Assembly: GCF_019649055.1 (NCBI RefSeq)
Contig: NW_026570237.1
Coordinates: 806,001-870,000, forward strand
Length of the DNA stretch: 64,000 nt
Reading direction: 5' to 3'
Source of the DNA: Paramacrobiotus metropolitanus
Taxonomy: Eukaryota; Tardigrada; Eutardigrada; Parachela; Macrobiotidae
The notes beneath the pieces are model-generated. The model ran no database searches and had not been told where the DNA came from. It saw nothing but the letters and a program-made list of their open reading frames with translations. A program made the translations under genes and the position numbers. The first letter of the stretch is position 1. Each line of letters starts with the position of its first letter. Of this stretch, positions 11,016 to 64,000 are shown one piece after another.

Positions 11016-11172
11016 CGTAGCCCATCCTTACCAGCACGGCCATCTGGAGGAACATCCAGGTACAGGATAGACGGCAGACTGGCCACAGAATAGGGAATCA
11101 CCGTCGTATCCAGTATGCGCTTCGCATGCGAAAAGCACGGCAGGCTCGTCCATTTCTGGCACTGATGACAAA

Positions 11173-25155: not shown

Positions 25156-28100
25156 ATGAGCATACCTGGCACCCCCGAATCCTCGCCGTTGGATATTGCG
25201 GACCATGTGAACAGGAACTGGGAAGCCTGCGACCAAGACGCCCTAATCAGCCTATTAACACCATGCTTCCATCCATCCAGCGGTGACAGCGATCCCGTGA
25301 ACGACGCAGACGGCGCCTTCCACGTGGCGCACCAGCAGCAGTACCCCTGGCTGGCGTACTCCCCCTCCGCCCGGGGGGCCTACTGTCGCTTCTGCTCCCT
25401 GGGCTTCGCCGTCGGCTGGCAGGGCCACCGCCTACCCTGGCATGCGCAGTTGGTCGGCACACCGCTGGACGCTGCCAAGAAATCCACGGCGTACTATGCC
25501 AATCACGAGAAAACAACCTACCACAACCACGCGCGGGCCCAGGCGGAGCAGTTCTGGGTGACGGTGTCGCCACTGCCCCTGATGATCAGCGTGCCCGCTG
25601 CGGAGCCGAAGAATTGGAAGGCGGCGGAACGGGAGTATAAGCGACTTACCGGGCAGGGCGGCGTGGGCGGGGAGGGGCCGTTAAGTGCGGAGGATGAGCG
25701 GCCAGTTCGCCAGACCGTTCGGGGAATCTGTAAGTACGAGTACACTAATGATAATATGTACTTTGCAAAAAATAGTAAATAATAATAACAGTGAAAATAA
25801 CAATAGTACCAAATAATAATAAAATTATTATAATAGTACTATTTTTCAGAAATTTTTCAGAAATAAATAACAGTGCAAACGTGCAAATACTAAGACATTC
25901 TGTGGATAAAATTTAATACGAGTACTAGTACCTTTTTTTTAGCTGCAGCCGCGATGCATTGGCGGAATTATGCACTCTTACGTGCTGCGGGTATATCTGA
26001 CTGTTGTGCATTTTTTTCTTCTGGAATTTATGCTGCTCTGTTCATTGTTTGTTATTATTTCTTAGTTTTTGATGGCGTGTTAGTAATATTTAGGGTTTTG
26101 CAGATTGCGACCAATGCGAGCAGGTTTACGTGGAGCCATGTCCTTTGCATTTGCAGACTATGCCCGATACAACTGCTCCGCCGTACGCTGTGGCCAGCTT
26201 GCCGGAAAAGCTGTATTTGATACGGGCGGAAGGTGAATAACTCTCGAGTTCTTCTAGAATCTAGACTACTACTCGTAGTTGTTATTTCATCCAGTTTAAT
26301 TGGTAAATTCAGTTGAATTAGTACGAGTACAGATCCTGCGGAGGATATGATATCAAAATCATTATATTAAATTTTTCTTCGGCCGTTCGGAACGAAATTT
26401 GATAAAACGGTGTAAAATATCTGCGTGTTTTTATTCTTCGCATATCTTTGTGCTGTTTTGCAGAAAATGCAGTGTTTGCCAAAGAGACCATTCCTTCCCT
26501 GACCGTCTTCGGGCCTTTAGTTGGATCGATTTCCGAAACGAGACCGGATGAATTTGATTTTGTCTGTCGGAATGTTCAGGATAAAGGCCTTCGATATTTC
26601 CAGTTGGATTCAGATGAGACTGCCAACTGGATGAAATTCGTCAGATTTGCCGACAGCCCAGCAGAGCAAAATGTTGCTGTTTATGAGGTGACATTTTGAA
26701 GTTTATCGATTCTGAATTGGAAATCTTGTTATATATTGTTCACGATCAGTACGGAAATGAAATGTGTTAGCAATCGACGTCGAGACGAAATAGCATTGTC
26801 TCATCGTTGGTTTCGATGACTGAAATTTTGCCATTGCTTTTGCAGTGATGTGATAGTTAGTAAATTCCAAGAAGCAACCGATATATGAAACTTAATCGGT
26901 AAAATCCTTGGGAATTATTCAGGTCGAAGAAACCGACGAATCAACGGCATGTCGACTGTTGGAAACGCGCGTCATGTTCGTTACAACGGAAGATATTTCG
27001 GCGGACGAGGAATTGAAACTTGGATATTCATCAAATTATGCCGACATGATTCGTAATGCGAGCTGGAAATGTCGAGCGCATTTGGAAAATGGTAGGTCGT
27101 TGTGGATAATAAAGCCGGGAGTAATGCACGGCCGCGCATAGAGCGTGCATCCAAAAACGTTGACTTGTGCGCTACAAGACTTCAAGTTCTCATCCGATCC
27201 TTAGAATTCGCATTATGTCAAGTTTGCATTTCATTACACATAATAGAAATAAAAAAAAGTACGTGCGAGAATCAATTTAGTTGATCATAGGAAATATTGA
27301 ACTGTTTGCTGCTGCGTTATTGTTTTGTATACACTGCGGGTCAGTATAACGGAAGCCACTATTCTACATTAACCAGTAAAATTAGCGCTTTACTGCATTT
27401 TTGTTACAGTCTTACAGATTTTGTTTGGCTACAGTCTTACAGATAAAAATTGTTTGGCTTATTGTACTGCTCTAGGCTTGTGCTTATTGCGTTTGTCGCA
27501 GCAAGCGAGTGATAGGTCGGCCATAGAGTGTCGCTTATGCAGTTACGACTTCGATGCAGGTTGTTACAATGTTGGCCGAAGCGTCCAGCTCACTGCCCTG
27601 CAGTGACGTCGGCGATGCCGGAGGTTGCTACAATGTTGGCCGAAGCGTCCAGCTCACTGCCCTGCAGTGACGGGGATGCGGTAGTTTCGATGAAATGCCG
27701 TTTCTGTCTGGATTTCTTGACACATTTTGGCTCAGAAACGCGTTTTTGGATTTCTTGATTTGGCATGTATTTGCGATATGCAACTTCAATACTTTTCCTT
27801 CAGTTTGCAATTTGAAATTATAATCTAGACAGTTTGCAATTTGACTAAATTAATGATTTATAATATTCCTGTTGCGAAGAAAATGCGCAAGAAGCGCTTT
27901 ATCTGCATGCAACAGCGAATTGTCAAATTAATCCAATTTTTTCGCGACTAGTTGCGATAACAGTTGCAGTTGATCAACCCGTGAATGACGATCCATCCAC
28001 TGACGAACGATTCCGGCCACGGATAAGAAGGCGTTTGTGCCCCAACAAGTTCCGACCGCCGGACATATAACAGAGGAACCTTCACATTGTCGGCGATGTT

Positions 28101-29238
28101 ACCACTTCCCACCACGAACTCTTCCATCCGCACAGCTTTCAACAGAGCATTACCAACATCAGAACGGGACTGTCCCGCTTGCGAGTTCCATGCCGCTAAT
28201 TTTGCAGAATTAGTGGCGCATGTCTGGGTGCATTCGTCCTCCGGGAAGGAGTGCCGGCCCTGTGTCATCTGTGGACTGCACAGTCCACGATTGAAGGTGG
28301 AGTTAATATCACAATTACAGAGTACAGACGTTTCGTATTCTAGGTTGAAATCAAATTTTTTTTGAAAATCACACTGGGCTTCTAGATTTTGAAACGGTTT
28401 ATAACCAGTAATCTAAAGTTTTTAATTAATGTTTTTATGAAGAAATTGATCCAGTTAAACGCCGTTTCAGTAAAATACAGTGAATAACAATTAAAAATAA
28501 AGTGCGACTGCGTAAAATAACTTTTGATGCAGAAGTTGAATTGACTGGGACTCAGATCAAATGCCGATATAATATAACACAGTGCGATAACTGTTAAACA
28601 TAAGCGTTAAGTGTATATTAGTAACTATCGCTATTTCAATGACATTACTATAACAGAAAAACTATTCCTATATTTCCGAAGATAAATTTTCTAAATTTTT
28701 TTAATCTTTAGTTGTATTCGTTTGAAATTATTTCAAAACCGCCACGGAACGGTTTAAATTGCAAACCTTATTGCAGGATCATATGCGTCTGGAGCACCCG
28801 CAAGAAATGAAACAACTGGGCAAGCACAGTGATTTTCTCTGCGCGGAATGCGGCTACACCTTCAAGCTGAAGGCCAACTACACGACGCACATGAAGAAAG
28901 TGCATCCGCAGTTCCAGTGCTGGTACTGCGCTCGCATTTTATATTCAACAGAGGAGTTCAACGCGCACACCGCGGAACATGCCGTTGACGGTGTGTACCC
29001 GTGCTCGTCGTGCACTGCCACATTCCCCACGTACGATGCCTCCAGCGAGCATTTCCACGAGTGCCACGATGTGGCCAATATGAAGGTGTGCGAGGTTTGT
29101 CTGGTGGTGTGCGGCGGACAGCAGAAGTTGGCCGAGCACATGCAGCGGGAGCACGGTCAGGGAAGCGGGCGGAAGAGGAAGCGAGTCAGGAAATCTGCAC
29201 CAAAAAGTGGCGGGGAAAACGGCAGCATGCCCGTGTAG
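25156..29238 (+). CDS. PRDM9-like gene B with an N-terminal TTF-type zinc finger
   Basis: Exon 1 (25156-25729) encodes a TTF/ZMYM-type finger: YPWLAYSPSARGAYCRFC, later NHEKTTYH, giving C-x2-C with H-x5-H. It ends in phase 1 at CT|GTAAGT and fits exon 2 (26104-26232), the zinc knuckle YCDQCEQVYVEPCPLHL then YAVASLPEKLYLI. Exon 3 (26464-26687) is the 224-nt PR/SET exon (ANWMKFVRFA). Exon 4 (26923-27091) closes SET with ADEELKLGYSSNYA. A basic exon near 27964 (RFRPRIRRRLCPNKFRPPD) resembles the PNFLPPD exon of gene F, but a stop follows, so that part is uncertain. The finger exons run to 28296 and 28777-29238, and the product ends in a KRKRVRKSAPKS tail. The predicted role is a chromatin methyltransferase or regulator. 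The fingers match only about 8-13 of gene F. Confidence 0.6.
27559..27672. repeat. 64-bp tandem duplication inside gene B
   Basis: The unit starting GGTTGTTACAATGTTGGCC recurs 64 bp later with a T to C change and runs through CTGCCCTGCAGTGACG. It lies between the SET and finger exons of gene B. No translation of it fits the family, so it is probably intronic. Confidence 0.85.
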
Positions 29239-29310
29239 CTTGTTGCTGTGGTTCGCATTGATTCAACACTGGCCAAAGAAAGGAATAATTTTTTCCAGGA
29301 TTGAGCCCAC

Positions 29311-30780: not shown

Positions 30781-33700
30781 ATGCGCTCGCCTGTACGATG
30801 TTCACCAGTTGGGTTAATATGTAAGCTGCATCGAAGTCTGCAGAGTCTTCCTTTAGCACGATACGCGGATACCTCGACGGACTGAGCAGCTGATGCTTTT
30901 TAGACTGCGAAGAATGCCAAACTCACACGCCGCGGCCTTGTTACGCACACGCACGCATCACTCCCGACAAGCTCGTCGTTCCCTATTCCGTGGCCAGTCT
31001 TCCCGAATCACTGTAGCTGCACGCTGCACTTGATGATGATTCTGGTTGGTTTAATAAAAAACAACGCATTTGATTTGCCGAGTGGATGTGTCATGCTGCG
31101 TTGTTTGCAGAGAAGGTCGTCTTCGCCAGAGAAGTCATTCCGGCGCTGACAATCTTCGGTCCCTTGATGGGATCGGTGACAAGCATTAAACCAGCCGAGT
31201 GTGCCTTCGCGTGCGGGAATGCGGAGAACGAGGAGCTGCGCTACTTTCAGCTGGATTCCGATCACACCTCCAACTGGATGAAACACGTCAGATTCGCTGA
31301 CAATCCACAAGAATGCAACGTCGCCGTCTTCGAAGTAAGTTTAGGGCAGTGGTCAATAATGATTCAGTTACTTACTACAGTAACTATCCTTAAAATTAAC
31401 GTTGCACGAAGATGTTTTTTTATATTTTTGCTGGTATTTGTATTTTTTTTGAAGATTTTTAATTTTTGTTTCTTGTGACCGAAGGTAGGTAGTGAATTTT
31501 TTACCGAAGGTGGTGAAGCGTAGTGAAAGTAGTGATTTTTTACCGAAGGTAGTGAAGCGTGCGATAAGTTGAATATTGGTACAGTACAAATAAGTATTTG
31601 CCACAAATGTATTGATGCGGCGTTTTATGAAAATGTATCTTCGATGATTTTTCAAGATATTAAAATACTCAGATAAATTTGTCACTGTACACGTAAGTGG
31701 TAGATTAAGTTATGATGCAGTTGAGGGAACACTGCAAAGCAAACTCTAAAAAAATTATTGGAGCTGAATTCTTCATTAGTCGTCCGTTTTCGCTTTATCA
31801 GGTGCCGCAGTCTGTCCCTTTTTGGCAGTCTTCCAATGGTTCATCGAGCTTGGGGATGGTGATCTTCGTGACACTGCGCCGTATTTTGCCGAACGAGGAG
31901 TTGAAGGTCGCTTACTCGTGGGAATATGCCAGCCGTATCGGACGTGGCTATCTGGGAAACACGACGACCGGAAACGCCAGCAACGCCGCAAATACTGTCG
32001 ATGCGGCCATTTCCAGTGGACTGCCGGCCGACGGCGCTGACACAGACAATCTCGCCGCCAGTTTTATTAATTTCGACGTTAGTCTTACAGCTAACGTGTT
32101 ATTGGATTTCCCTTCAATCGTTTCTGACAGAAGAGACGACGGCGGTAGCGAATGTACGGACGACGAGTTTGTTTCCGATTCGGAGGTTGTCAATGGTAAA
32201 TTAACATAGAACAAATCACATTGTGGTTATCTTAGAAATAAATAAATTAACGTAATAAAGGAAACAGCTTCTATTTTTACATTTTCATGCTAGATTTTGT
32301 TTCACTGGATGAGAAATTCGTTGTTTCGGCCAACGAGGAAGATACCGAAACTGGCGTTAATACTTTCCGCTATACGGAGGACTCCGACGTTATGGCTGCC
32401 ACACTCGTCGACCATCGCGACAATGGTAAATTTTATTTTACCAGCAGACGTGAATGCAATTTTTTTATTGTTTTTCTGATTTTGGTTGTATTGATAGATG
32501 GCACGATGTCAGAAAAGCCTGTGAGGCAACTGGACGATGGTTCGAATTTGCCATTGACAGAAAACCCTGAACCCGATTCCGGTGAAATTATGGACTCCAA
32601 CCAAGAAAGTCTGAAAACCAGGGAACACCTTTTGTCTCGGAAATATGGAAAATGTTTGGTTTGCGGTCAGAATTTCAGAGACCTGATATCTCATCTCAAC
32701 ACAACGCATACTGAGGAGGATGTACGCGCAGTGAACGATGCTTGCTTCGTGTGCCATAGAAAATTTAGGAGCCCGAAACTGCTGGCAACTCACTTGAAAA
32801 GGGTAATCCGCGTGCGCTCTTAACGACCCGAACTAATTTATCCAGCAAAGTAGCATAAAATTATGGAATTCCAGCAACTGTAGTTACTGATTAAAAGCCA
32901 GATTCTGAGTGGCACAGTTAGCTAGGTAAGATTTATTCTGCTAATAGTGGTGACTAAACTTTTGCTTATACTAAAAAACTTACTATACAATTTTTATATG
33001 CGGTAATTAATTGCTCATTTAAATGAGATCATTTTCAATGGATTGGGTGTATTTCTTTTATATGTTGAAGGTCCACCGTCGCATTTCGCCGCCAGACGAA
33101 GCCGCTCGACTGGCTGCTCTGGATTACATCCGGAGAACGGGATTCCTGCATTACCGCTGCGCTATATGCCGCAAAGTATTTACAAGCGAAGCGCTGCTGA
33201 ATGTCCACGCTTTTGCACATGATACTGATAGAAGCCGGCATGAAGAACAACCGGAGAGGAAGTGTCCAGCCTGTGCGTTTACTGCGTCGACGTTTGCCGA
33301 GCTGCTTGAACACATCGGTCTGCACGCGCGCACCCTACGGAAGCTGAATCAGTGTATTTTGTGTGGAGTGCCGGTTGATCACGTACAGAAACATGCAAAG
33401 TCGCGCCATCCTGAAGTGCTGCATATGGTACAGGAAAAATGCCCGTTTGAATGTTCCGAGTGCTCGCAAACCTGTATTAGTATCGGTGCGTTGAAGTGTC
33501 ATATGAACCTTAGCCATCAACGTACACGCTGTTCATACTGTGGATTCAGGAGCCCCAACATGAAAACTTTAATTAATCATGCCAAGGAGCACTGCGTGGA
33601 CGGGTTGTTTTCGTGTCAGTGGTGTACCACATCTTACAAAGAATATGCGGCACTTGCTGTGCATATTCAGGAAAGTCACAGTGATGCTCAGGATCAATTC

Positions 33701-35032
33701 GCCGCGGAACATGCCGAAACTGTATGTGACCTGCAGTCAGAAATAGATCATTGCCTCGAAAATGTGTGAAGGGATTCTAGCTCTTTATAAAAATTCTTGT
33801 TTAGGCTGGGACTGATCTCGTTGCTGCAGATGCACTCGAAAGTGCTACGTTGACGGAATTTATTGCACACATGAAAGAAACAACGACGTTTTCCTATTAC
33901 TGCACTTCCTGTAGACTGCATTTCCCCATTAAAGTGCTGTTTGACCTGCATCAGATACATCATTCTGTGGATAAAGCTGAATTGGACCAGCGTCCAGAGC
34001 GTCGTTGCCCGGCGTGTGATTTCGAAGGAGGCTGCTTTGGCGACTTAGTGCATCACACCAAGGAGCACGGTTTAAGTGCGACGGATAAGAAGCCCTGTGC
34101 AGTGTGCGGAGAACACTTTCAGCATTTAAAACGACATTTCCGCGCCCGGCATCCAGACATCATGAAGCGCCTGGAAGAGAGTTGGAAATTTGGGTGTGAA
34201 GAATGTGGAGAACGGTTCAAGAGCGAAAACAATCGTGCCATCCATATGAAGGTAGCACATGTAGGATTTCAGTGTCTGTACTGCGCTAAATTATTCCGTT
34301 ACCAGCGAGATCTGGGATTGCACGTCCGGCCGGAACACAGCGTCAACGGCGAATTTCCTTGTCCTTCTTGTGGTATAAAATTCCTGAAGTATCCTCTCGT
34401 CAGACTGCATTATCGTGAATACCACGATGTGACACAGATAAAGACGTGCGATGTTTGTCAGCATGTCTGCCGCGGCAGTAAACAACTGGCTGAGCATATG
34501 GAAGACGTTCACGATGTCCAGACGGGAGGTCGGTAAAAAGAAAAAAGGGACGAAACGAAAGCGTGCACGGATATCCTATCATCGAACGCCTGCGGGCGGC
34601 TACGAATGCCCGGAATGTGGGAAAGTGTTGAAGAGATATTCTGCACTTTACTTGCACAAGCAGAATGTGCATCATTTTGGAATGAGTCAAGCAGAGTGGA
34701 ATGAAACACTACTTTCTGGGGAAATCCCGGAGAAATCACGGTTAACATGTGATGAATGTGGAATTTTGTGTTCCACCATTCACAGTCTGTATCGGCACAA
34801 ACGCTGGAAACATGTTGGGGATTACAAAGAGAAGTTTGAAAAGGACCGCGCAGAGAAGAAGCGACTGGGAATTTACACGCACTGGAAGACGTACAAGAAG
34901 CCGCGCGATCGCATGGCCTTCGCCGATTTCCCACACCAGTGCCACTTGTGTCAGTTGGGATTTATGCGAGAAATTGCCCTGAAGAAGCACAATGCAACAC
35001 AGCATCTGGGATATTATGCACAGCAGTCCTGA
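30781..35032 (+). CDS. PRDM9-like gene C (in-frame TAG, one frameshift)
   Basis: Exons: 30781-30820 (40 nt, MRSPVRCSPVGLI), 30904-31044 (141 nt knuckle, YCEECQTHTPRPCYAH), 31111-31334 (224 nt PR/SET, SNWMKHVRFADNPQ), 31802-32195 (SET end, NEELKVAYSWEYA), 32294-32425 and 32498-32802 (acidic linker; finger CLVCGQNF), 33071-33763 (fingers 1-6) and 33805-35032 (fingers 7-16). A tiny 41-nt intron is implied between the finger exons. Two lesions stand out: TAG at 31014-31016, where gene D has TAT (Tyr), and a +1 slip near 34530 in the basic linker before finger 14. It might be a recent pseudogene or use readthrough or alternative starts. It is very close to D and H by sequence and intron plan. The nuclear chromatin role is inferred from PRDM9. 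Confidence 0.65.
31014..31016 (+). other. In-frame TAG in the zinc-knuckle exon of gene C
   Basis: The codon order SLPESL-stop-LHA replaces SLPESLYLHA of gene D. The same codon is TAG in gene H (58629-58631). The rest of each exon stays open and the exon length is unchanged. Confidence 0.85.
31490..31562. repeat. Short direct repeats TTTTTACCGAAGGTRGTGAAGCG
   Basis: Two near-identical copies lie in the intron between the two SET exons of gene C. A third partial copy starts the run. It is non-coding. Confidence 0.7.
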
Positions 35033-35856: not shown

Positions 35857-38800
35857 ATGCGCTCGCCTGGACGGTGCGAACAAGTTCGGCAAATATGTAA
35901 GCTGTTTCGAAATCTTGTCCTGTTTTAGCACAGTGCCCCGGCCAACTGCTCAATGTGTGCTACTTGCTAGTCTGCGAAGAATGCCAAACGCACACGCCAC
36001 GGCCGTGTTATACACACGCGCGTATCACTCCCGACAAGCTCGTCATTCCCTATTCCGTGGCCAGTCTTCCCGAGTCACTGTATCTACACGCTGCAGTTGA
36101 CGATGATTCTGGTGGGTGCATGGCAGTTGTCGTGTTGCTGTTGCGGAGACAGCAGAAAAGACGTCTGCAGTGTGGATGTGTTCATGTTGCGTTGCTTTGC
36201 AGAGAAGGCCGTCTTCGCCAGGGAAATCATTCCCGCGCTGACAATCTTCGGTCCCTTGATGGGATCGGTGACCAGCATTAAGCCCGCTGAGTGTGCCTTT
36301 GCTTGCGGGAATGCGGAGAACGAGGAGTTGCGTTACTTCCAGCTGGATTCCGATCGAACCTCCAACTGGATGAAACACGTCAGATTCGCCAACAATCCAC
36401 AAGAATGCAATCTCGCCGTCTTTGAGGTAAGCACTGGCAATATTCTTGTTCGAAATACTGTAATTAATTTTTAAAGTAAATAACGTAACAGAATTTTGCT
36501 TTGCGACATCTAACTTTTAAAGATTTGCTGTTTGTAGATTTTTTGTTTTGTAACTTGCGACTGTCGTCTTGAGGCGGTGAAGCGTGCGTCAAGCCTGTTA
36601 TTTTCCTAATTTCTAAAAATTAAAATGTTTTGCGGCGCTGTATGAAATTGAAGCTCTGTGGTTTAGAGTGATTTTTCCAGGCACAGTACTCAGACAAATT
36701 TCTCATTATAATCTTAAGCTGAAATCAACTTGAACCCATCAGCTAAATTTATGAGCTTATTCAGGAACATCGGAGATAAAACTGCGAAAATTTTATAAGA
36801 TCTTGACTCGTCCGTCCTTACCTGTCCGTTTTTAACACGTTTCCCGCTGTGTCAGGTACCGCAGTCTGTTCCGTTCTGGCAATCTTCGAATGGCGCGTTG
36901 CGTTTGGGATTGGTGATCTTTGTGACAATCCGCCGCATTCTGCCTGAACGAGGAACTGAAGATCGGCTTACTCGTGGGATTATACCAGCCGCATCGGGCG
37001 TGGCTATCAGGGCAACACGGCGACCGAAAACAACACCCACGCCACTAATGCTGCCGGTGCAGTCATTTCCAGTGGACTGCCGGCCGACATCACTTTGATG
37101 GACAATCTCGCCTCCGATTTCATCAATTTTGACGTTAGTTCCACAGCTAACCGTGACTTTGCAATGGATTTTACTCCCGTCGTCCCCTGCAGGACATACG
37201 ACGGTTCTAGCGAATGTCCTGACGACAAGGGTGTTTCCGATTCAGAGATTCTCAACGGTAATTTTTTTTATTGCGTTTCGTATATATAATTTTTCTGGTT
37301 TGGAATATAGGCAATAAGCTGTGGTTAATATAGAAAATAAAATAAGAAAAAGATCTTCCACTGTTGTATTTTTAATGCCAGATTGCCTTTCTCGGGATGA
37401 GGAATGCTTGGTCCAGGCCAACGTTGAAGCAACTGAAGCGAGCGAGTGTACTGTCTTCGATACGGAGAACGCAGCGTTTTTGGGTCGAACAGCGACTGCC
37501 TCACCGGTCAGCAACCTCGACAATGGTAAAGCTTTACATCCTTGTATGCAATTTTTCATTTGGTTGTGCGTACGTTCGTTGTTTAACTGGTTTTCTCGCA
37601 GATGACGCGCTGTCAGAAATGTGTGTGCGGCATCTGGACGATGGTTCGGATTTGCCGTTGACAGTTAGCCTTGAAGCCGACTCCGGTGAAACTGTGGACT
37701 GGAACCAAGATAGTTTGAAAACCAAGAAACATCTTCAATCTAGGAAAAAAGGAAAATGTTTGGTTTGCGGTCGATATTTCAAATACTTGGTATCACATCT
37801 CAACACAACGCATACGGAGGAGGATGTCCGTGCAGTGGATGACGCCTGCTTCCTGTGTCATAGAAAATTTCAAAGCCACAAAGGGTTTGGAGTGCATCTG
37901 AAAATGGTAACTCGCTCACTAACTCGCGTGTCTTTGGACAAACCGAACGATAATTCTTGTCCATCTGATCAGCATAAAAAATAAAGTTATGATATTTAAT
38001 TCTACGACCTTCAGCTACGAATTAAACTCGATACTTTATGGTCACATTTAATTACTTATATTTTTCAAGATAGAATGATCGATTTTGTACAATATTTGTT
38101 ATGTATTTCACCATACCTTTATGCAGAAATGAATTGTTCCTCTGAATGAGGTCACTTCCAACGGATTGTGATGTTCCCTATTTCTACCTTAAAGGCTCAC
38201 CGTCGCGTTCCGCCGCTCGACGAAACTGCTCGACTAGCTGCTCTGGATTATATCCAGAGAACGGGATGCTTGCATTACCGCTGCGCTGACTGCCGTAAAG
38301 TGTTCACAAGTGAAGCGCTGCTAAATATCCACGCTTTCGCACATGATACTGATGGAAGCCGGCATGAAGAACAACCGGAGAGGAAGTGTCCAGGCTGTAC
38401 GTTTACTGGGCCGACGTTTGCCGAGCTGCTTGAACACACCGGGCAGCATTCGCGGACCCTTGGGAAGCAACATCAGTGTATTCTGTGCGGCATGCTTGTC
38501 GATAGCCTAATCAGGCATGCAGACGCGCAGCATCCTGAAGTGCGGCAGATATTGCAGGAGAAATGGTCGTTTGAATGCTCCGAGTGCTCGCAAACCTTTA
38601 TCGATATGGTCCGGTTAAAGGTTCATATGAACAAGAGCCACCAACGCACCCGCTGCTTGTACTGCGGATTCCGAGGCCCCACCATGAATGCACTGATTAA
38701 GCATGTGAAGCAGCATCGCGTGGACCGGTTGTTTCCGTGCCAGTGGTGTGGAATATCCTATAAAAAATATGACGCACTTGTTGTGCATGTTCGGGAAAGT

Positions 38801-49500: not shown

Positions 49501-51145
49501 TACAGGATTAGGCCCAGTATTTCTAGGCATGGAGAGCAGTTTCCTAACGGCCTTGATCGAACCGATCTGAATGGGACCGAGTTGCGAACGCGGTTTCACA
49601 CGCTTGGTAACCGTGGCGGAAGAATCTTTATTCTCTTGTCCACATGGTTCCGCTGCCATCATAGGCTCGGTCGGGTGAGCACTCTGCCGTTCGGCGGAGG
49701 CGATGGTCTGGGAGTAGACCAGGGAATAGGCGACTTTCAGCTCCTCGCCGGGTAGGACAACCTTCGTGCTGATGAATATCACGTGCGTACGCGTAGGCGA
49801 AACAGCGTCCGAGGGTGTCAACAAGAGAGAATCTTCATGGACCTGCAAATCATTTCGTCAGCAATGCATAACAAGTTGCCAATGTACATAGCTACAGAGT
49901 CAGCCAAATCACTCAAAAAGAACAATTTTAGAGATTATGTAGGGCACTATACAAACGTTTCGGAAAACAATCAAATTCTTTTCACTTTTTTAAAGATTTG
50001 TTTCAGAAAGGTGTGAAAAATAGTTTGACACAACAAATTACTATTGCCTCAAAACATAAAAACTAAGTAAGCGTTAAAGATTTCCACTAAATTAGTAGTC
50101 TCGCTAATTAGATTAAGTTTCGCTAGATCATAGATCGAATTCACAGATTTTTTTCAACATTGAACTTTGCCTTTCGGACTGCGTAGCCCAAAAGAGCCAC
50201 CGTTTACCTCGAACGCAGCCAAATTTTGCTCAGTCGCATTCCTGGCAAATCTCACGAATTTCATCCAGTTGGTCGTCTGATTCGATTCCGTGTGAAAATA
50301 ATGCAGTCCTTCCTGCGATGCACTTCCGCAGGCGAACGCCGCATCAGCCGGTTTATCGACATTCAGTGCACTGACGAACGGGCCGAAAACTGTCTGCGAA
50401 CGAATGGGTTCTTTGGCGAAAACGGCTTTGTCTGAAGAAAAAATTGTATACACTAAAATTTAACATGCTTGTCGGTTTTTTGCTTAATGCGAGCTGTTCT
50501 GTCTAGTTAAAAAAAATTTCACCAGCCGCTCTTAATGTGTATGGGAAATTTAACGGTTTTTAGAGATAAACGGGATGAACCAACACTGAAGAATTCAAAA
50601 GAAAATCCCTCAATATTCAGGGTGGAATGACTGGAATCCCCAAAATTCAGGAAGAACTGCTTTAAAAAATGGAAATGAAAATCCACTAAATTCAGGGAAA
50701 AGCCTATTTAATATTCGGCCTATTCTTACCAGATTGGCCATCGGAAGGAATATCCAAATACAAGACAGACGGCAAACTCGCCATAGCATAGGGAAACACC
50801 ATCGTGTCGGGAATGCGTTCCGCATGCGAAACGCACGGCACGGTGGTCCATTTCAGGCACTCATTACAAACTGCAAAATGCCAAAGAAATTGCAATAAAT
50901 ATGGTACGAACATACGAGTACGCTGCTACTGTGTAATCCGTTAAAGCACTGATTCTGAATTTGTACCAACCATATTATACACCGTACGACGTATAAAAGC
51001 ATGCTGACAGCAGTTCATCGTGGCTTTTCAGAAAGCAAGCCTACGCAGTACAGCACTACGCATGACTACGACATTAATACATCAGTACTAAGTGCACGAA
51101 CTTACAGATTTGCTCCAGGGGTTCACAATACTGAGAAACGGCCAT
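46534..51145 (-). CDS. PRDM9-like gene F, complete (about 1079 aa)
   Basis: Seven minus-strand exons join without a stop: 51145-51106 (40 nt, MAVSQYCEPLEQI), 50870-50730 (141 nt knuckle, FCNECLKWTTVPCVSH), 50431-50208 (224 nt PR/SET, TNWMKFVRFARNATE), 49842-49395 (SET end, GEELKVAYSLVYS), 49324-49130 (basic then PNFLPPDED), 49069-48738 (CLVCGERV finger) and 48393-46534 (sixteen C2H2 fingers in one exon). A longer start at 51289 is possible; 51145 is chosen because it keeps the 40-nt start exon of relatives. Knuckle, SET and finger order matches PRDM9 without KRAB or SSXRD. PRDM9 methylates H3K4/K36 and marks recombination hotspots. Here the WYG catalytic-pocket motif reads AYS, so activity is open. 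It is the only family member on the minus strand in the 25-64 kb cluster and the nearest relative of gene A. Confidence 0.8.
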
Positions 51146-53356: not shown

Positions 53357-56300
53357 TTTGTACCGTCTGCCATGCATTTTCGGAGGGGCCCGTATGTTTT
53401 ACCCACGCTCAGCGCATCCCGGACATACATCCGTCATTCCCTTCGCCGCGGCTAGTTTGCCCGACGTGCTTCTGTATTTGACATACGATATGCTGTATTT
53501 GACATAATATTTCCTCTGTACGTTCCTTATATAGATATACATCGTGGCCGGTGTTTCCGGATTGCGGGACACGTCTCAAGAGGGCACATTAAATCAATTA
53601 TCGCTTCCGCGTTAAAGCTATTCAAACTGGCGGCACCAAGGATGCAAAATCGGTGTCTTACCAGATGCATGCAGAACACCGGTGCGGACGAAAATGCGAC
53701 TGACAATAAACCAGAGTTTCACGAATAGCTTCCGAATAGTTTCACGGTATCAGACTGAATAGCTTCCGCTCTGCACTATCTGCTGTGGTCGATTTTACGA
53801 ATTACGATCAACAGGTGTCAATAATCAAACTATCATACGAGTGTCAATAGTTCACTCATCGAGTACATTCAACTGCTCGGAATTCTTATTCAGCGCTCCA
53901 CAGTTAAAATGGTGAACAAAGAAACATTCGTCAGAAACATAATAAAACTTTAACAAAGTATTATGTAGAGAAAGATCAAAAAGAAATGCACGGTTGTACC
54001 GTTCGCAACATAACCTTCCTGGACGGTATGCTGTATTAAATTGGTATATATCAGACATATGATAGGCCCTCTCGCTGCACACCTTAAAGTGTTCTGTGAG
54101 TTAAGTGCGATTAAACGAACCAGCCAACAGATTCGAATTTGAAAGTGTTCTTCAAGTTAAAGGATCTCTATGAGTTCCTTCAAGATACAGAACAGCCATA
54201 ACTGTGAACGCAGCAGCTAGCTATAAGCTGACAGTAAGCGCTCTTTAGGTGTGCGGCGAGAGGGCCTAATATCACCTTCTTTATTTTCAAAATTAGTCGT
54301 ATACATCGGTTTATTGTACGCGCGTTCAGTCTGTCAAGGAAGGCGCAATAAAAGCTGCTGTTTCCTTCGAGTTATTTACTTTGTTATTTGTTACACCATC
54401 GGACGCGTACCTACCAGTACCTGCAAACTATTCCAGAATCGCTTTACAGAGAGGGCCGTGTTCGCCAAGAAGACCATTCCCGCGCTGACCGTCTTCGGCC
54501 CGTTGGTGGGCGCCCTCACGGCCGAGCCGCCATCGGAATTCGCATTTGTTTGTCACAATGCTGGTGATGATGGTACGCGTTATTTTCAACTGGACTCCGA
54601 CGCGACGTCCAACTGGATGAAATATGTCAGATTTGCAAGGAATGCAGACGAGCGGAATGTGACTGTCTGTGAGGTAGAGAATTATTATTTTCTAACTCCG
54701 GTTGTTACTTGTTAATAGTATCGTGTATATATTGTGCGACGATTTAGAATTTATAATCCTAATGACCAACTTCTTGAGCTGAAAATAATAAAATTTTGTT
54801 AAAAACAGTTGGAATACCTAATCTGGTTGAACGAGTGGTGTGAGATTTAACAACTGATATTCCCAACATGTGAAACGCATTTTAGGCATATCATACAGTA
54901 GTTTGTAACCTGTGCGGTTCGGCGCACTGACTTTGACTGATTTTTGTTGTAATAAAATTAATTTTCAAATGCGGGATGGGGCCACAGTACGTTTAGTTTT
55001 TAGGCTTCTCTTTGTTTAAGCCAAGAAGTGCCTTAGCTGACGAAGCGCAGTTTTGTTTCGGTTCTTTTATGATCGTTCATTGTTGCTTCGTTAATTTTCA
55101 AGGTGGTGTAAAATATCAGTTTCAGTTTATATGAAATGCACTAGTGTTTTATTGATGATACAGTACAAATTAAAAAATCGGACTAGTGACAATTTGGCTG
55201 ACCGCGGTAGGTGCCGGCATCGGCGTTTCCGGATGTCGGTTCCGATGCGCCGAGCCTTGTCATCTTTATGACAACTAGGATAATTTTACCAAATGAAGAG
55301 TTGAAAGTTGGCTATTCCCGTGGCTACTCCGAAGTTGTACAGCGCTTGAGAGCTCGACATACCGTATTATTGGACGTGGCCGGCGCGACTGAGCTTCACC
55401 ATCAGGACATCGCAGCGTCTCTGCCGCATTCTCAGCCGGAAGCCGCAGCTAGCCAACGTCTAATCAGTGAGGATAATCAAGAGCGCAGCAGCGATGCCGA
55501 CGGGACGAACGTGTGCGGTGCCATTTGGTACTCTGCCGTCATGCCGACGCCATCGGAACTCGCTGTAACGGTTCTGAAGCATTTCCAAGGTCAGTGTGTG
55601 TGCTGATATGCTCAATACTCGTACAATTAAAAGAACGAAGAAAACCGAAAACAAAATTAAGAAACCAATAAGAGCACTTAAATCTGAGAAATCTAAAAAT
55701 CCAAGAGGTTAAAATAATTGTAACACACTTATAGTGAAATTATGCGCAATGGTATGAAACTGCGGAGACGAGCATTGCTCACAAAATACATTCAAATGAA
55801 ATATTTTTTCCAAGTTAGCACAAAAAGGGACCATAGCACGAGAATACACTTGTTAGTTGCGTTAAGGGGTGTAGGTTGAGTTTCATTCAGTTAAACAGGG
55901 TTAAGGCACCGAAAATATACAAGCGACAATTCATTGCGTGTGCAACGTGCGTGTAATTCATTTGCTGAGATATGGTCCTGAATCTGATACGCTTCGATCT
56001 TGCAGTGCCCGCAAAAAGCGAGTGCACTTTCCTAGTATGATTGTGCAGTCATTCTGAAGCGATAATCAGCAAAGTACAAGCGGATCTCGCATTGGAGCGA
56101 TAATTCAAAGCATCTCGACTGGAAACGCTTATGCAGCGCTTCCAGCGAGCAGTTGACTGTCCAGGTTGGAAAAGGATACAAAGTCAGGAGTCAGCTACGA
56201 TCATGATTACCGGAATCGAGAAACACCAGTTCATTCGGCCAGATCGCAGGCCTAATTTAGTAGATTGTTCCGTGCAAACGCAAGAAGAACGAAAACTCAC

Positions 56301-57228
56301 GTAAAATAGCTTGGTCAGAAGAGTTAGGCACAACATGGTGAACTGCTTGGACGAACATTCACCCGCTTTAATATTTTTAGCGAGACGCCGGAGGACGGAA
56401 ATGTCAGCAGCGTCACCGTGGCTGGAGCAGTCAGAGTCCGTGCAGTTGCCATCAGGCTTGACGGCGCATGTGCAGCGCGTGATCAGCAAATGCACGGACC
56501 AACGTGCGAACGCTGACCGATGCACTGTGTCCACCGGAACCCAGACGGACGTGGTGCCCTGTCCTCTGGGCGAAACGACGTACGACGACGGTGATGATTC
56601 CGCGCAGCCCCCGCGGAACGTCCACTGCAGGCCTGGACTGCCTCATCGACAGTCGGTTCATAGCGACGTGAGCATGGAGTTTGAATCGGCGAAGACCAGA
56701 TTGCCGGTTAAGCAGGTGGGTTTGGTGCATTCTGTGAGGATAGACTTAACTATCCAGCGGCTGCTTCTGACGAGGTGAATGATGTTCTCCAGATGAAGAA
56801 ACTTCGGCGTGGGGCGCGCGAAAAAGCGCCGAGGCAGAGCCCCGTCTCCGGGTCGCTTGCCGTGCGATGTATGCGGCAAACTGTACCGCTCCCGGAAAAT
56901 CCTACGCGTCCACAAACGGGACGTGCACTATGGCGACCGGAGTCTGCAGTGCGATGAATGCGGGCAGCTGTATGCCAGTCCGGCGTCGCTGAATAAACAC
57001 AAACACTGGGTGCATATTGGCGACGCACAGGAGAAGTTAAATCGCGAGTATAAGAAGGAACGGGGCATACCCTGCTATTCCGCGACCTACGTGAATCCAC
57101 GTAAACGGCTGCCGCTGGAGCAGTTCCCCTTTCGCTGTGACGAATGCCAGCTGGGTTATATGCGGGAGATCACGCTGATCAAACACATTGAAACCCGACA
57201 TCCGGAGCAAGTCGAAGGGAGCTCGTAG
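53357..57228 (+). pseudogene. PRDM9-like gene G (short finger set, damaged knuckle)
   Basis: The knuckle exon begins at 53357 behind TTTTGCAG (FCTVCHAFSEGPVCFTH), but two extra bases before the IPFAAASLPDVL segment shift the frame. PR/SET exons 54450-54673 (224 nt, SNWMKYVRFARNAD) and 55211-55589 (NEELKVGYSRGYS) are intact and in phase. Exon 56381-56715 (335 nt, phase 1 to 0) carries an acidic/Ser-rich linker with TGTQTD. The last exon, 56793-57228, encodes a basic segment, then three C2H2 fingers equivalent to the terminal fingers 14-16 of F and H (CDVCGKLYRSRKILRVHK onward). One extra base in the basic segment is needed to link the frames. Fingers 1-13 of the relatives are absent, so G is either a short natural form or a deletion derivative. 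Confidence 0.6.
53840..54010 (-). repeat. Diverged copy of the 3' flank of gene F
   Basis: Shared order with 46305-46460: TTCATCGAG/TCATCGAGTACATT, TCTTATT, AGCTAAAAT/AGTTAAAATGGT, GTGAACAAAG/GTAAACAAATAAAGAAAC and GAAAGATCAA. It lies inside an intron of gene G, suggesting that another minus-strand family member once stood here. Confidence 0.45.
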
Positions 57229-58398: not shown

Positions 58399-61300
58399 AT
58401 GCGCTCGCCTGCAGCACGCTGTGAACCACTTGGGCTGATATGTAAGCAGCAAATCTTGGCTTCCCTTAATATGGTGCTTTGGGCCTTTGGCCGATCCTCA
58501 TTTTGTGATTTTTGCTAGTCTGTGACCAGTGCCAAACTCATACGCCACGGCCCTGTTATACACACGCCCGTGTCACTCCCGACAAGCTCGTCATTCCCTA
58601 TTCCGTGGCCAGTCTTCCCGAGACACTATAGTTGCACGCTCCAGTTGACTGTGGTTCTGGTGGGTGCACGAGGTCGTAGTGTTGCACTGTTGCTGCTGTG
58701 CAGGAAGCAGAAAGTACGCTTGCAGATTGTTCATGTTGCGTGATTTGCGTTGATTGCAGAGAAGGCCGTCTTCGCCCGAGAAATCATTCCCGCGCTGACA
58801 ATCTTCGGTCCCTTGATGGGATCGGTGAGCAGCGTCAAGCCAGCCGAGTGTGCCTTTGCTTGCGGGAATGCGGAGAACGAGGAGTTGCGTTACTTCCAGC
58901 TGGATTCCGACCAAACCTCCAACTGGATGAAACACGTCAGATTCGCTGACAATCCACACCAGTGCAACGTCGCCGTCTTCGAAGTAAGCACTGGCGTTAT
59001 TAGGTTACGGTACGTCGGTACAGTTACTTATCCCCACGATTAATGTGATAAATTTCTTGCTTTTTCGTAACTGGTAATTTTTGATGTAATTTTATTGTAT
59101 TGACAGTAGTTGACGTGAATGTTGTCATTTGATTTTCAATTCAAGCAGACACCTTTTCTATCCCTTAGTTGTTGAAACGTTCGGTGGTTTTGGCCTAGCT
59201 TTAAGTGAATTTGTACATTTTATGGGCCGTAAAACTCGTGAATTAACTGTAGAAGCGCGTTCTACTGCTTTTATGAAGCAACGTTTTAGTTTGGCTGTCA
59301 TTAAGGGGAATGCTACTGCTGTGTTAAGTACGTTGCCTTTTAACCCGCGGGCGGATAGAGATTTTGGTTGTTTTTTTAATGTTTAAATTTTAACTGTAAA
59401 GTAGTGTGCCCGCGCTTGCACTTTTGTTGTTGTGGCGGCTATTGCCCAGTAAACTATAATTTTCAATTTAAATTTATCAGTTTTCACTGAATGCTCTTAT
59501 AAGTGCCGCCTGATGGTGGCAAAATTTGTAATAATGTTTACTATGTATTTTTTAAAACTAGAATTGATCTGCCCGTTCTGCCGTAAATTATAAATTCGCA
59601 TTCTGTGAAACTAGAAGATCTTCCCAAACAATTAAATATGAAAATTTATAATACTTGCATCGTTCTAGTAACATTGAAGATCAAATCATCAACTCTGCAA
59701 AATGACCAGATAAGAAATTGAACTGCCGGATAGAATTATTATTACATGTATATAGTAATTTAAAGAAAACCATAAGCAAATGGGGAATTTGAGTTAGTCT
59801 TTGGTTCACCATTGATTTGCAATCAACACGTTTCCGCTGCGTCAGGTGCCGCAGTCTGTCCCGTTTGGACAGCCTGCGAGTGGCGCATTGAGTTGGGGAA
59901 TGGTTATCTTCGTCACCATCCGCCCCATTCTGCCGAACGAGGAGCTAAAGGTGGCGTACTCGTGGGATTATGCCAGTCGCTACCCGACGAAAACGGCAAC
60001 TGGCAGCATCGTCCACGGCCCGGCTGCTGTCGGTGTACCCGTTACCAGTGGACTGCCAACCAACAGCACTCTCGCGGAAAACCACAGTTTCAACCTTGGT
60101 GTTACGGCTAACGGCAATGCGGACGTTTCTCCCATCATACCCGACATGGAATACAGCGTTATGAGCGAACGCACCGATGATGAGGTTGTTTCCGATTCCG
60201 AGAATGTCCATGGTAAATTCAGTTTCTTGCTGCGTTCGTGCAGCTTTTCTGGTTTCGGATATAGATATATACGGATCAACGTTCATGCGATTCTGTTTAA
60301 TATGAAAAAAACGCAAACAGAAATATCAGAACATTATTCGTAGATTTCCTTCCACTGGATGACGAATGCATGGTGCAGGCCAATCTGGAAGAAACTGAAG
60401 CCGACGATACGGACGCTGAAGATTCGGAGATTATGGACGGGATAACGACTGTCTTGTCCGCTGATAACCACGAGTGTGGTAAATGCTATCTTGCAAGCCT
60501 CGTGTGGTTTTCAAATTTGTGGGGCTTACTTGGATTGTGTTATCGCAGATGACGCGGTGTCCAAAATGCGGCATCCGGAAGAATGTCCAGGTTTGCCGTT
60601 GACCAACGAAAATTGTGAACCCTCCTCCACATGCCGCACAGTCCACCCTGAACCTAGTTCCGGTGAAATCGTGGACACCAACCATGACAGCTTAAAAACC
60701 AAGAAACACCTTCAGACCCGCAAGCAGGGCAAATGTTTGGTGTGCGGTCAAAATTATTTTGACTTGGTATCCCATGTCAACGCCGCGCATACGGAGGAGG
60801 ATATCCGCGCAGTGGATGACGCCTGCTTCATCTGCCACAAAAAATTTAAGAGCAACCAAAGAGTGGCAAGACATTTTAAAGCGGTAAATCGCTTGTATCT
60901 TAAATTATCCGAGCTGTAGTATGTATGCAACAGGTTCGCACAAATCGAACAGTTTCAGTTACGAAGTACATTAATGCTGCACCGGCAACTGACAGCCTCT
61001 AACTCGTTGGTAATTAAGTAGTTGAATCTAGTTTTTGTACATTGGTGCAACATTTACCGTTTATAGTATTTGTACATGTATTATTTAAAGTACTTATACA
61101 ATATTTTTGTTAATTCCAGTAAAATTCCATCGGGTTGCAATGTTTACTGTTTTTACCTTGAAGGTCCATTGTCGCATTTCGCCGCCAGACGAAGCCGCTC
61201 GACTGGCTGCTCTGGATTACATCCGGAGAACGGGATTCTTGCATTACCGTTGTGCTGCATGCGGCAAAGTGTTCACAAGCGAAGCGCTGCTGAATGTCCA

Positions 61301-63163
61301 TACTTTCGCCCATGATACTGATAAAAGCCGGCACGAAAATCAACCGGAGAGGAAGTGTCCAGCGTGTACCTTTACTGCTACGACGTTTGCCGAGCTGACT
61401 GAACACACGGGGCAGCATGCGCGGAAGCTGCGGGAGCAGAATAAGTGTATTCTGTGCGGAACCCATGTTGCCAGCTCGAGGAAGCATATAAAGTCGTACC
61501 ATCCGGAAGTGCTGAAAATGTTGCGAGACAAATGGTCATTTGAATGCTCGGAATGCTCCCAGGTCTTTATCAATATCGGCGCGTTGAGATGCCATATGAA
61601 CAAGAGTCACCAAGGTCGCCAGTGTTTATACTGTCGATTCAGAACCCCCTGCGTGACAACTTTCGGCGATCATGTGAAGCAGCATGCCGTCGACGGGTCG
61701 TTTCCGTGTCAGTGGTGTGGGAAATCCTGTGGAGAATATGGATTACTTGCAGCTCATGTTCGGGAGAGTCACCGTGATGTGGCGGATCGATTCGCCGAGG
61801 AGTATACTGAATCTTTAAGTGACTCTCACCGGCCGGAAGATTTCGTCGAGAAGGTTGTTATATTAGTAGTCTGAAGCTAATAACTAATAAGCAAAGCTTA
61901 AAGTCTAAATACTATTTTAACTTTTTTTAGGGTACTGCTCAGACTGCGAGCGCCTCAGGCGCAGTCGACAGCGCTCCGTTGGCGGAATTTATTGAACACA
62001 TGAAAGAAACGACGACGTTTTCTTATTTTTGTCGCTCCTGTCACCTGCATTTTTCCATCAAAGCGCTGTTGGATCTGCATCAGATACATCATTATGCGGA
62101 TAGAACAGAATTGAATCAACGTCCAGAGCGTCGTTGCCCTGCGTGTGATTTTGAAGCCGCCTGCTTTGCTGATTTGATGCATCACACCAAAGAGCATGGT
62201 TTGAGCGCGACGGATCACAAGCCGTGTACAGTCTGTGGAGAGCATGCTCAGAGTCTCAAATGGCACTTCCGTACCAAGCATAAAGACATCATGACGCTCC
62301 TTGAAGAGAGTTGGCAGGTTGGATGTGAAGAATGCGGAGAACGATTCAAGAACAAAACCCGACTTGACCTGCACATTCAATCAGCGCATTTAGGATTTCA
62401 GTGTCTGTATTGCGCTAAATTGTTCCGTAAACAGCGGGATTTGGGTTTGCATGCCTGGCCGGAACACAGCGTCAACGGCGAATTTCCTTGTACTTCTTGC
62501 GATAAAACATTCAGGAGTTATCCTCTTGCAAGACAGCATTATCGTGAATACCACGATGTGACGCAGATGAAGACGTGCGATATCTGTCAGCATGTCTGCC
62601 GCGGCAAGAAACAACTGGCGGAGCATATGAAAAGCGCTCACGATGTCCAGACACGGATCGGAAAATTTAAGAGAGGTATGAAAAGTCAGCGAGCACCGTT
62701 CTATAAGAAAACGCCAACGGGTGGCTGCGAATGCCCGGAATGCGGGAAAGTACTGAAGAGTTGTACGTCACTGTATTTACACTTGCGGCATGTGCATCAC
62801 TGTGGGAAGAAAGTAGCGGAGTGGAACAAAATGCTAATTTCTGGGGAAATCCCGGAGAAGCCGCGCTTACGTTTCTCGTGTGATGAATGCGGGATCGTGG
62901 TCTCCAGCGCTTCCAGTCTGCATCGGCACAGACGCTGGAAACATGTCGGAGATTATAAAGAGAACTTTGAGAAACGCCGCGCAGAGAAGAAGAGACTGGG
63001 AATTTACACGCATTGGAAGACGTACAAGAAGCCTCGCGATCGCATGGCGTTGGAGGATTTCCCACACAAGTGCGACGTGTGCCAGCTGGGATTCATGAGA
63101 GAAATTGCTCTAGAGAAGCATAACACAACACGGCATCAGGAAGATATTGCGAAACAGTCTTAA
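58399..63163 (+). CDS. PRDM9-like gene H (open throughout except one TAG)
   Basis: Eight exons keep phase: 58399-58441 (43 nt, MRSPAARCEPLGLI), 58519-58659 (141 nt knuckle, FCDQCQTHTPRPCYTH), 58760-58983 (224 nt PR/SET, SNWMKHVRFADNPH), 59846-60212 (SET end, NEELKVAYSWDYA), 60344-60478 and 60549-60883 (acidic linker; finger CLVCGQNYF), 61164-61853 (fingers 1-6) and 61931-63163 (fingers 7-16). The sum is 1056 codons including the stop. The only lesion is TAG at 58629-58631, where gene D has Tyr. An upstream in-frame ATG at 58336 is possible. The intron after the first SET exon holds a retroelement tail. Predicted nuclear chromatin regulator of PRDM9 type. If the TAG is real, translation must read through, start downstream or not yield the knuckle. 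Confidence 0.7.
58629..58631 (+). other. In-frame TAG in the zinc-knuckle exon of gene H
   Basis: The same codon position as the TAG in gene C. Neighbouring codons differ synonymously (CTA-TAG-TTG here, CTG-TAG-CTG in C), so the two copies have diverged around the shared stop. Confidence 0.85.
59140..59460 (+). mobile_element. Retroelement reverse-transcriptase tail (copy 2) in an intron of gene H
   Basis: The plus strand encodes FYPLVVETFGGFGLALSEF, GRKTRELTVEARSTAFMKQR, SLAVIKGNATAVL and a final GCFFNV before TAA. This parallels copy 1 at 29.9-30.1 kb. The post-stop sequence CACTTTTGTT...GCCCAGTAAAC is also shared. Only the last about 80 residues remain, consistent with severe 5' truncation on insertion. 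Confidence 0.7.
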
Positions 63164-63938
63164 TGATTTAGTTCTGCAGTATTACTTAGCTATGACCGGA
63201 CGATTAAACCGGTTAATTTTATTTTTTTAACGCGAATTTTGTAAATGCGAATTCGGAATTATCCGAATTTCAGAATGTTTTGATCTCGTATTTGCTGGGA
63301 TTGTTTAGGTTCTGAGGTTATGTGTTCTACACAATGTAAAAATTCTTTGGTTTGTTATTTCTAACAGTAGAGAACCACTAAAAACAGGTTTCTTTCCACT
63401 AAAAATGAAGAATTAAAACGCACGTCACTCGCGGGTCAGTTGCATAAGAGAAATGCAGTTTTTCAAAAACCAAAAGAAACTGCCGCCTGGTGACAGCGAC
63501 TACATTACGCTGCCACACTGGGCGGTTGCGGATGCGTCCAGCGCCGGAAGTGCCTGGATCTGGTACAGAGTACAGACTGCACGAAAATTATGATCATGAT
63601 TTTCAAATAGTTATTTCAGTTTTTATGTTTTGTAACTTTCACTTTCTTGTAGCTTGGTGTTTTTAATTGTACTTTAGTAATTTTAGCGTCTCATTCTATT
63701 GTTTTTTTTTAAATAAAACATGAAATTAAAAGTACTGAAAACCTGTGGCAACGGTTAGTGGAGTACCGTCTGTATCTCGAGGAACAAATTTTGCATCCTT
63801 CCTTTAGTGGTGAGATCAGTCACACACACCCAAGGCTTCTTTTCGCGTTCGTTGTCGCGGCTGCCACTGTGTGTTTTCTGATTGACGATTAAGAGCAGCG
63901 CCTCCAGACAGCAGTTGCTGTGGAGGAACCTCTGGGCA
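63164..63938. other. Intergenic between gene H and gene I
   Basis: No coding sequence seen. The sequence GTGACAGCGACTACATTACGC near 63492 loosely recalls repeats beside other family members. Confidence 0.4.
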
Positions 63939-63978
63939 ATGCGTTCGGCTGTACGCTGCGAACCACTCGGGCTGATCT
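63939..63978 (+). CDS. First exon of PRDM9-like gene I (cut by the window end)
   Basis: A 40-nt exon encodes MRSAVRCEPLGLI plus one base and is followed by a GT donor (CT|GTAAAAAG). Length, phase and product equal the start exons of genes C, D, F and H. An in-frame TGA lies upstream, supporting this ATG. The knuckle exon should lie within about 100 bp past the window end. Confidence 0.6.
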
Positions 63979-64000
63979 GTAAAAAGATGTCAAATCAAAT

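Follow-up and report, generated by a model that had tools for sequence, protein, structure and literature searches.

The 64,000-nucleotide stretch of the tardigrade Paramacrobiotus metropolitanus analyzed here (contig NW_026570237.1, positions 806,001 to 870,000; G000:C17:806001-870000; hereafter the window) carries a cluster of genes that combine a zinc knuckle, a PR/SET domain and C2H2 zinc fingers. With a probability of roughly 70%, this cluster is part of a radiation specific to its lineage, in which a PRDM10-like ancestor gave rise to about 81 knuckle-PR/SET-C2H2 loci as copies were duplicated in tandem, diverged and were lost. The window family suggests that DNA-binding regulators have expanded privately in the lineage of this animal—most likely sequence-specific regulators whose PR domain is mostly non-catalytic.

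How large is the family in the whole genome (reported size, 170 Mbp; PMC11191345)? Exon matches to the Pfam profile PF21549 numbered 85, three of them PRDM1 and PRDM14, and three protein queries gave 67, 72 and 82 matches. Merged at a distance of 1 kb, with PRDM1 (C2), PRDM14 (C5), a PRDM10-like locus (C154) and a fragment (C342) set aside, profile and queries together yield 81 loci of the family, spread over 10 contigs. C17 has 50 of them, C73 10, C12 9, C104 5 and C448 2, while C15, C26, C47, C166 and C168 have a single locus each. These counts are lower bounds, and some of the 81 loci are partial or broken. The loci on C17 span 0.703-1.514 Mb with a median gap of 8.4 kb, and the window is one patch among them; the tandem radiation in an invertebrate that a preliminary description of this DNA had proposed is real and far larger than the window. 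Knuckle-like motifs, with their spacing free to vary, numbered 53 in 44 of 72 sequences scanned, many of which are too short to contain a knuckle. A finger query from locus E of the window gave at least 120 matches (150 of 202 candidates scored), nine of them in a cluster on C70 without a PR hit and the rest on contigs with PR loci. The C70 cluster (G000:C70:707856-740467) thus holds nine related C2H2 exon matches and no PR hit from PF21549 or the three protein queries.

Are these copies distinct genes? Among 75 PR-exon places compared at the DNA level (a few of the 81 loci are absent from this comparison), the best match of at least 300 bases reached 94.7% identity, which argues against unmerged haplotypes or haplotype duplication and for distinct copies. 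Several copies are modelled in the database: P0004, P0018-P0020 and P0023 are encoded on C17, and P0021, P0022 and P0024 on C104, with P0018-P0023 being long models that carry knuckle, PR and fingers. The NCBI names given to related proteins ('zinc finger protein 26-like', '729-like', '814-like', 'Xfin-like', 'PRDM10-like', 'PRDM15-like') are so varied that the family cannot be recognized from them. A homologue search with residues 1-190 of P0019 returned only P. metropolitanus sequences (7 of 7), so the range of the family among tardigrades stays uncertain; the 17 matches to the PR profile include one from Hypsibius exemplaris (P0010) and one from P. metropolitanus (P0004).

Within the window, a six-frame reading combined with exon searches found PR/SET domains at seven loci in the interval from 25.1 to 64 kb. 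Eight (B to I) had been described there; the count obtained here is seven. The window loci are as follows.

8594 to 12482, both strands: locus A; knuckle at 11170 (minus), finger pieces in mixed orientation
26106 to 29238, plus strand: locus B; knuckle from 26106, PR exon 1 at 26454-26687, PR exon 2 at 26971-27051
28162-28296 and 28771-29154, plus strand: finger matches of locus B
30906 to 35029, plus strand: locus C; knuckle from 30906, PR at 31104-31334 and 31814-31957, linker C2H2 at 32497-32802, finger exons at 33068-35029
35973 to 40296, plus strand: locus D; knuckle from 35973, PR at 36193-36426, fingers at 38192-40296
41868 to 46084, plus strand: locus E; knuckle from 41868, single-exon PR at 42290-42565 without the Y357 equivalent, NPFQY-type segment at about 43993-44550, fingers at 44713-46084
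46534 to 51145, minus strand: locus H; knuckle-PR/SET-C2H2 gene for P0018 (NCBI name 'zinc finger protein 26-like', 1079 aa)
50725 to 50868, minus strand: locus H knuckle (start 50868), CNEC..CVSH and then MASLPSVLYL; the last few bases are intronic, with donor gtaag
50205 to 50438, minus strand: first PR/SET exon of locus H (start 50438); PF21549, 54.2 bits
49684 to 49806, minus strand: second PR/SET part of locus H, VIFISTKVVLPGEELKVAYS
46534 to 48402, minus strand: C2H2 exon of locus H, a 622-aa open frame; Pfam zf-C2H2, 2.6e-17
54227 to 57228, plus strand: locus G; PR at 54443-54673 and 55238-55345, fingers at 56815-57201; PF21549, E 3.2e-14
58521 to 63163, plus strand: locus I; knuckle from 58521, PR at 58756-58983 and 59858-59980, linker at 60638-60880, fingers at 61161-63160

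The PR exon searches used loci D and H as exemplars, so that the matches at D and H are self-matches; the weakest match elsewhere was 2.9e-8, at 42290. A PF21549 profile search of the genome independently matched the same seven places (40.2-54.7 bits), and the two window PR exons scanned against Pfam were labelled PRDM2_PR (PF21549; 3.6e-11 and 3.2e-14). C2H2 exons follow the PR domain at all seven loci, as had been described. The exact C-x2-C-x7-C-x2-H knuckle lies upstream of PR at six of the seven; a knuckle search of the window found none for locus G (54.4-57.2 kb). Counting the one at locus A, which has no PR, the window holds seven knuckles of this spacing, each followed by.ASLPxxLyL-like letters, and on both points the earlier description was right. 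Locus A itself, taken for a rearranged ninth member, has the knuckle, the fingers and the rearrangement; exon searches found no PR exon there, and it looks like a rearranged relic. The window contains no 84-base (finger-length) tandem array, the sole array inside a finger exon being a two-copy 36-base repeat, and Rfam and tRNA scans of it gave no matches.

Do the knuckle, PR domain and fingers belong to one protein? At locus H, the database gene model bears this out. P0018, recovered by a homology search with the joined exons of the locus, maps by tblastn on the window to 51145-46537 on the minus strand, with the first exon, MAVSQYCEPLEQI, at 51145 and the last coding exon at 48393-46537. The modelled protein starts MAVSQYCEPLEQIF and continues with the knuckle and the PR domain, after which a linker containing C2H2-like motifs leads to a large exon of fingers; a simple pattern count gives 13 C2H2 fingers. 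Because only 14 residues precede the knuckle, the model leaves no room for KRAB or SSXRD, and the earlier remark that neither is visible holds for this modelled member. A search of the genome for SSXRD gave no match, but had no positive control, and KRAB was not searched; a search for zf-CW (ZCWPW1-like) likewise gave no match, but without a positive control.

From which PRDM gene does the family descend? Against solved structures, the N-terminus of P0018 matched PRDM10 best (2e-8), followed by PRDM4 (2.4e-7), PRDM11 (2.6e-6), PRDM9 (3.7e-6 and weaker) and PRDM1 (6.1e-6). A single-exon copy from C12 also matched PRDM10 best (2.2e-17), ahead of PRDM1 (2.4e-15), PRDM4 (5.5e-14), PRDM11 (8.5e-11) and PRDM9 (6.9e-10). 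Two trees were built with solved human and mouse domains as references (PRDM12 and PRDM14 partial, the PRDM15 sequence not included). The first, of PR domains (86 rows, 67 of them family), has few columns, long branches and a bootstrap that had not settled; 14 of the 81 loci, with the PR split, partial, broken or not fetched, lie outside it and outside the tyrosine alignment described below. In this tree the family, a Hypsibius row and seven other rows form one group (support 99/91), next to which stand human PRDM10 (99/72), then the C154 locus (99/83), PRDM4 and PRDM1, with PRDM11, 14, 12 and 9 outside. The second, of knuckle plus PR (42 rows, thinned to 35 family rows), unites the family with PRDM10 and the C154 locus (99/92) and sets PRDM9/11 apart at 100/96. 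PRDM4 branches just outside PRDM10 plus family in both. The C154 locus (L069, G000:C154:226603-227985) is PRDM10-like and outside the family, with a knuckle-like segment of its own spaced x8 rather than x7. The knuckle spacing had been read as a mark of PRDM9/PRDM11; it is present, but human PRDM4 (2l9z) has it too, and it is therefore not diagnostic of PRDM9/11. On this sequence evidence, the most likely ancestor of the expanded family is a PRDM10-like gene and not PRDM9.

Could these PR domains be catalytic? In human PRDM9, three catalytic tyrosines are important, Y276, Y341 and Y357 (PMC5519329). The Y276 equivalent is a tyrosine in none of the 67 aligned family domains (L in 43, F in 14, M in 8, V in 2), the GPY motif of PRDM9 having become GP[LFMV] throughout, and the Y341 equivalent is likewise never a tyrosine (F in 61, L in 6). 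The Y357 equivalent is kept in 52; leucine replaces it in 12 and phenylalanine in 1, and two rows that are cut lack the position. Of the leucine rows, 11 of the 12 make up the E clade of the first tree, and the twelfth is L065. With Y276 and Y341 absent from every aligned domain, PRDM9-like trimethylation is unlikely; most copies might have a reduced methyltransferase activity through the remaining Y357 equivalent, although this is unlikely for the E clade. At Y276/Y341/Y357, PRDM11 reads Y/F/Y, PRDM10 V/Y/Y, and PRDM4 and PRDM1 L/F/Y. The pattern speaks against PRDM9 without singling out PRDM10, and PRDM11 also having F at Y341 qualifies the loss of that tyrosine as an argument against PRDM9/11. 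Matches, trees and tyrosines together make the 'PRDM9-type' label of the preliminary description probably wrong.

Are the genes maintained by selection? Rates were estimated from five close copies—C, D and I in the window plus J and K (L011)—with four of the five used for each PR exon, since the first PR exon of J and the second of D have broken frames and were left out. Pooled ratios of nonsynonymous to synonymous change (dN/dS) were 0.18 for the knuckle, 0.12 and 0.21 for PR exons 1 and 2, 0.28 for the linker, and 0.31 (ZF1), 0.20 and 0.20 for the three finger exons; these five copies are under purifying selection. In their 14 fingers, by a pairwise method, the nonsynonymous proportion (pN) was 0.259 at the base-contacting helix positions (-1, 2, 3 and 6) and 0.160 at the other non-core finger positions (permutation p 0.002). 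Six longer proteins showed the same tendency at contact positions (0.594 vs. 0.509, given with no significance test). The genes thus appear, from these rates, to be maintained while their target specificity drifts apart. Across seven proteins the finger spacing is irregular (26-98 residues), and TGEKP linkers are absent from all seven.

The DNA of PR exon 1 (about 31107-31337, with copies in D, I and L011) is unusually alike among copies, with lower synonymous divergence (dS) than most neighbouring exons and a diverged next intron: in 200-base steps the exon is 0.89-0.94 identical and the following steps 0.47-0.68, and its dS is 0.26-0.40 vs. 0.48-1.30 in the fingers. Gene conversion of whole 5' halves is rejected, since identity drops right after this exon; short conversion tracts or extra constraint on it may account for the similarity.

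What weighs against a radiation of maintained, diverging regulators from a PRDM10-like parent? A cruder joined query ranked PRDM4 (8.5e-8), PRDM1 and PRDM11 (both 1.1e-7) ahead of PRDM10 (2.5e-6), with PRDM9 at 6.7e-4. The C154 locus is nearly equidistant from PRDM10 (3.9e-15) and PRDM4 (1.3e-14) among solved structures, and the usual L/F/Y pattern of the family is that of PRDM4 and PRDM1, unlike the V/Y/Y of human PRDM10. The branch uniting human PRDM10 directly with the family has Shimodaira-Hasegawa-like approximate likelihood ratio (SH-aLRT) support of only 72 and 66, the reference set is small, and the branches are long (the tool warned that long branches meet). Approximately unbiased (AU) tests reject neither a grouping with PRDM4 without PRDM10 (10.6 log units, p 0.311, first tree) nor one with PRDM9/11, which costs 19.3 and 13.4 log units (p 0.164 and 0.10) in the first and second tree, respectively. 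dN/dS at contact positions is 0.35 vs. 0.28 elsewhere in the fingers—little raised, with no positive selection shown, because the synonymous proportion (pS) is higher there too (0.529 vs. 0.430). Finally, the reading frame of several copies in the window is interrupted by a stop or shifted in this assembly: a TAG at 30.9 kb (locus C, after SLPESL) and another at 58.5 kb (locus I), both inside a stretch that is exonic in locus H, and a frame change near 36945-36966 in the second PR exon of locus D.

An arms race with transposable elements, in which PR-zinc-finger proteins bind and silence repeats, would be compatible with PRDM10 descent and is a possibility that we entertain at somewhat less than even odds. 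KRAB-ZNFs and FiNZ-ZNFs are thought to bind and silence repeats, and zinc-finger and transposon counts correlate across animals, according to the consulted text of one survey (PMC10547256). Dozens of clustered copies, the faster change at base-contacting positions and the HTH_psq transposase-like frames beside the cluster would fit such a conflict. However, dN/dS at contact positions is barely above that of other finger positions, the fingers are irregularly spaced, and fly ZAD-ZNFs have expanded without repeat targeting (same text of PMC10547256). By analogy, one could go further and imagine a private genome-guarding system built from PRDM10, in which a non-catalytic PR domain recruits silencing machinery, the E-type clade lacks even the last tyrosine, and the whole stands in for tetrapod KRAB-ZNFs; we regard this as rather unlikely.

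Improbable, too, are PRDM9 descendants that lost KRAB and SSXRD, like teleost PRDM9-beta, and are perhaps still meiotic. The identical knuckle spacing and the presence of PRDM11 and PRDM9 among the solved-structure matches suit this idea, and PRDM9-beta also lacks KRAB/SSXRD, has substituted catalytic tyrosines and has its finger arrays spread in one exon (PMC5519329). Yet PRDM10 and PRDM4 outscore PRDM9 with both the P0018 N-terminus and the C12 copy, the spacing is common to PRDM4, the GPY change is universal (67 of 67), and the best trees, the check proposed in the preliminary description, place the family outside PRDM7/9/11. PRDM9 as a parent is disfavoured by scores, trees and tyrosines, with the AU tests stopping short of rejection. 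Least probable of all are mostly decaying pseudogenes or assembly duplicates of little function: the in-frame TAGs near two knuckles, the PR exon with a shifted frame, another in L011 that is split, the rearranged locus A and a reported BUSCO completeness of 72.9% (PMC11191345) stand against pooled dN/dS of 0.12-0.31 (computed without the broken PR exons of loci D and J), the long models P0018-P0023 and a DNA identity that does not exceed 94.7% in any match of at least 300 bases among 75 PR-exon places.

The radiation from a PRDM10-like ancestor, our preferred reading, has several neighbours and internal embellishments. Two facing sets of transposase-like frames lie at 16939-19145 (minus) and 19636-21779 (plus) of the window, each with an HTH_psq domain (5.5e-6 and 1e-5); we take them to resemble pogo-type elements, and two longer frames scanned had no Pfam match. 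An open frame before locus B (25156-25782), with PWLAYSPSARGAYCRFC, had nothing over the Pfam cut-off and by eye presumably resembles the TTF-type zinc finger of hAT-derived proteins. Two NPFQY/NPYQF motifs stand between PR and fingers in locus E (about 43993-44550) and in the C47 copy (L006, 2187-3314). The two segments match by BLASTP at 1.7e-13, and a second match, offset from the first (1.3e-4), would suggest a repeat within the segment; self-comparison found none, and that of locus E has no Pfam match. In the copy at 1.287 Mb on C17 (L005), a Myb/SANT-like domain (2.6e-8) lies between PR and fingers.

How might such a family work? A PRDM10-like ancestor would have been duplicated in tandem, with divergence and loss, into about 81 loci, a PRDM10-like locus outside the family being kept elsewhere (C154). 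The fingers would recognize DNA, the PR domain and knuckle would serve mainly as a protein-docking module, and each copy would have targets of its own, the most plausible role being the repression of repeats or of sets of genes; by analogy, repeat repression may be the most interesting target class, one of several. PRDM genes are usually few, conserved developmental regulators. About 81 PR loci plus a retained PRDM10-like locus would amount to a lineage-specific zinc-finger expansion with an N-terminal module unlike KRAB, ZAD or FiNZ. Because some of its PR domains have the last catalytic tyrosine and others lack it, the family offers a natural series for probing PR function; the tempting lead of PRDM9 in an ecdysozoan becomes unlikely. 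In the available text of open-licence literature on PRDM with tardigrades, arthropods, expansions or Paramacrobiotus, there is no account of this family. Within the portions available, a tardigrade zinc-finger survey centres on C4-type fingers and lacks the whole word 'PRDM' (PMC12941274), the main text of the Hypsibius/Ramazzottius genome paper mentions no 'PRDM' and no 'zinc finger' (PMC5531438), the zinc-finger/transposon survey has neither 'tardigrade' nor 'PRDM' (PMC10547256), and the words 'PRDM' and 'zinc finger' are both missing from the paper on the P. metropolitanus sex transcriptome (PMC11191345).

PRDM10 and PRDM15 are normally single genes. PRDM10 has the PR domain closest to the family in both trees and in two of the three queries of family members against solved structures, and itself carries an ASLPxxLYI segment ahead of the PR domain; human PRDM10 differs in retaining the Y341 equivalent. 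The family differs from both genes in its about 81 loci; moreover, two exons share the PR domain in the window subfamily, one clade lacks the last tyrosine, and some subfamilies have additional segments between the PR domain and the fingers. Of the three tyrosines, PRDM15 reportedly keeps only the Y357 equivalent (PMC9861158). PRDM4 shares the knuckle spacing and the L/F/Y pattern and is the second-best solved match of P0018, and differs in branching just outside PRDM10 and the family. PRDM9, PRDM7 and PRDM11 share the knuckle spacing and PR/SET domain, with C2H2 fingers as in PRDM9; unlike PRDM9, the family lacks Y276 and Y341, has no KRAB or SSXRD in the modelled member P0018 and no uniform tandem array of 28-residue fingers, and in the best trees takes a position outside PRDM9/11. 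From the KRAB-, ZAD- and FiNZ-ZNF families it differs in its N-terminal module (zinc knuckle plus PR/SET), in having no TGEKP in the seven proteins and in showing no positive selection at base contacts in the five copies compared (dN/dS 0.35). Nevertheless, like all of these it is a clustered, lineage-specific family that joins one N-terminal domain to many diverging C2H2 fingers, and is most likely the tardigrade counterpart of the KRAB, ZAD and FiNZ radiations.

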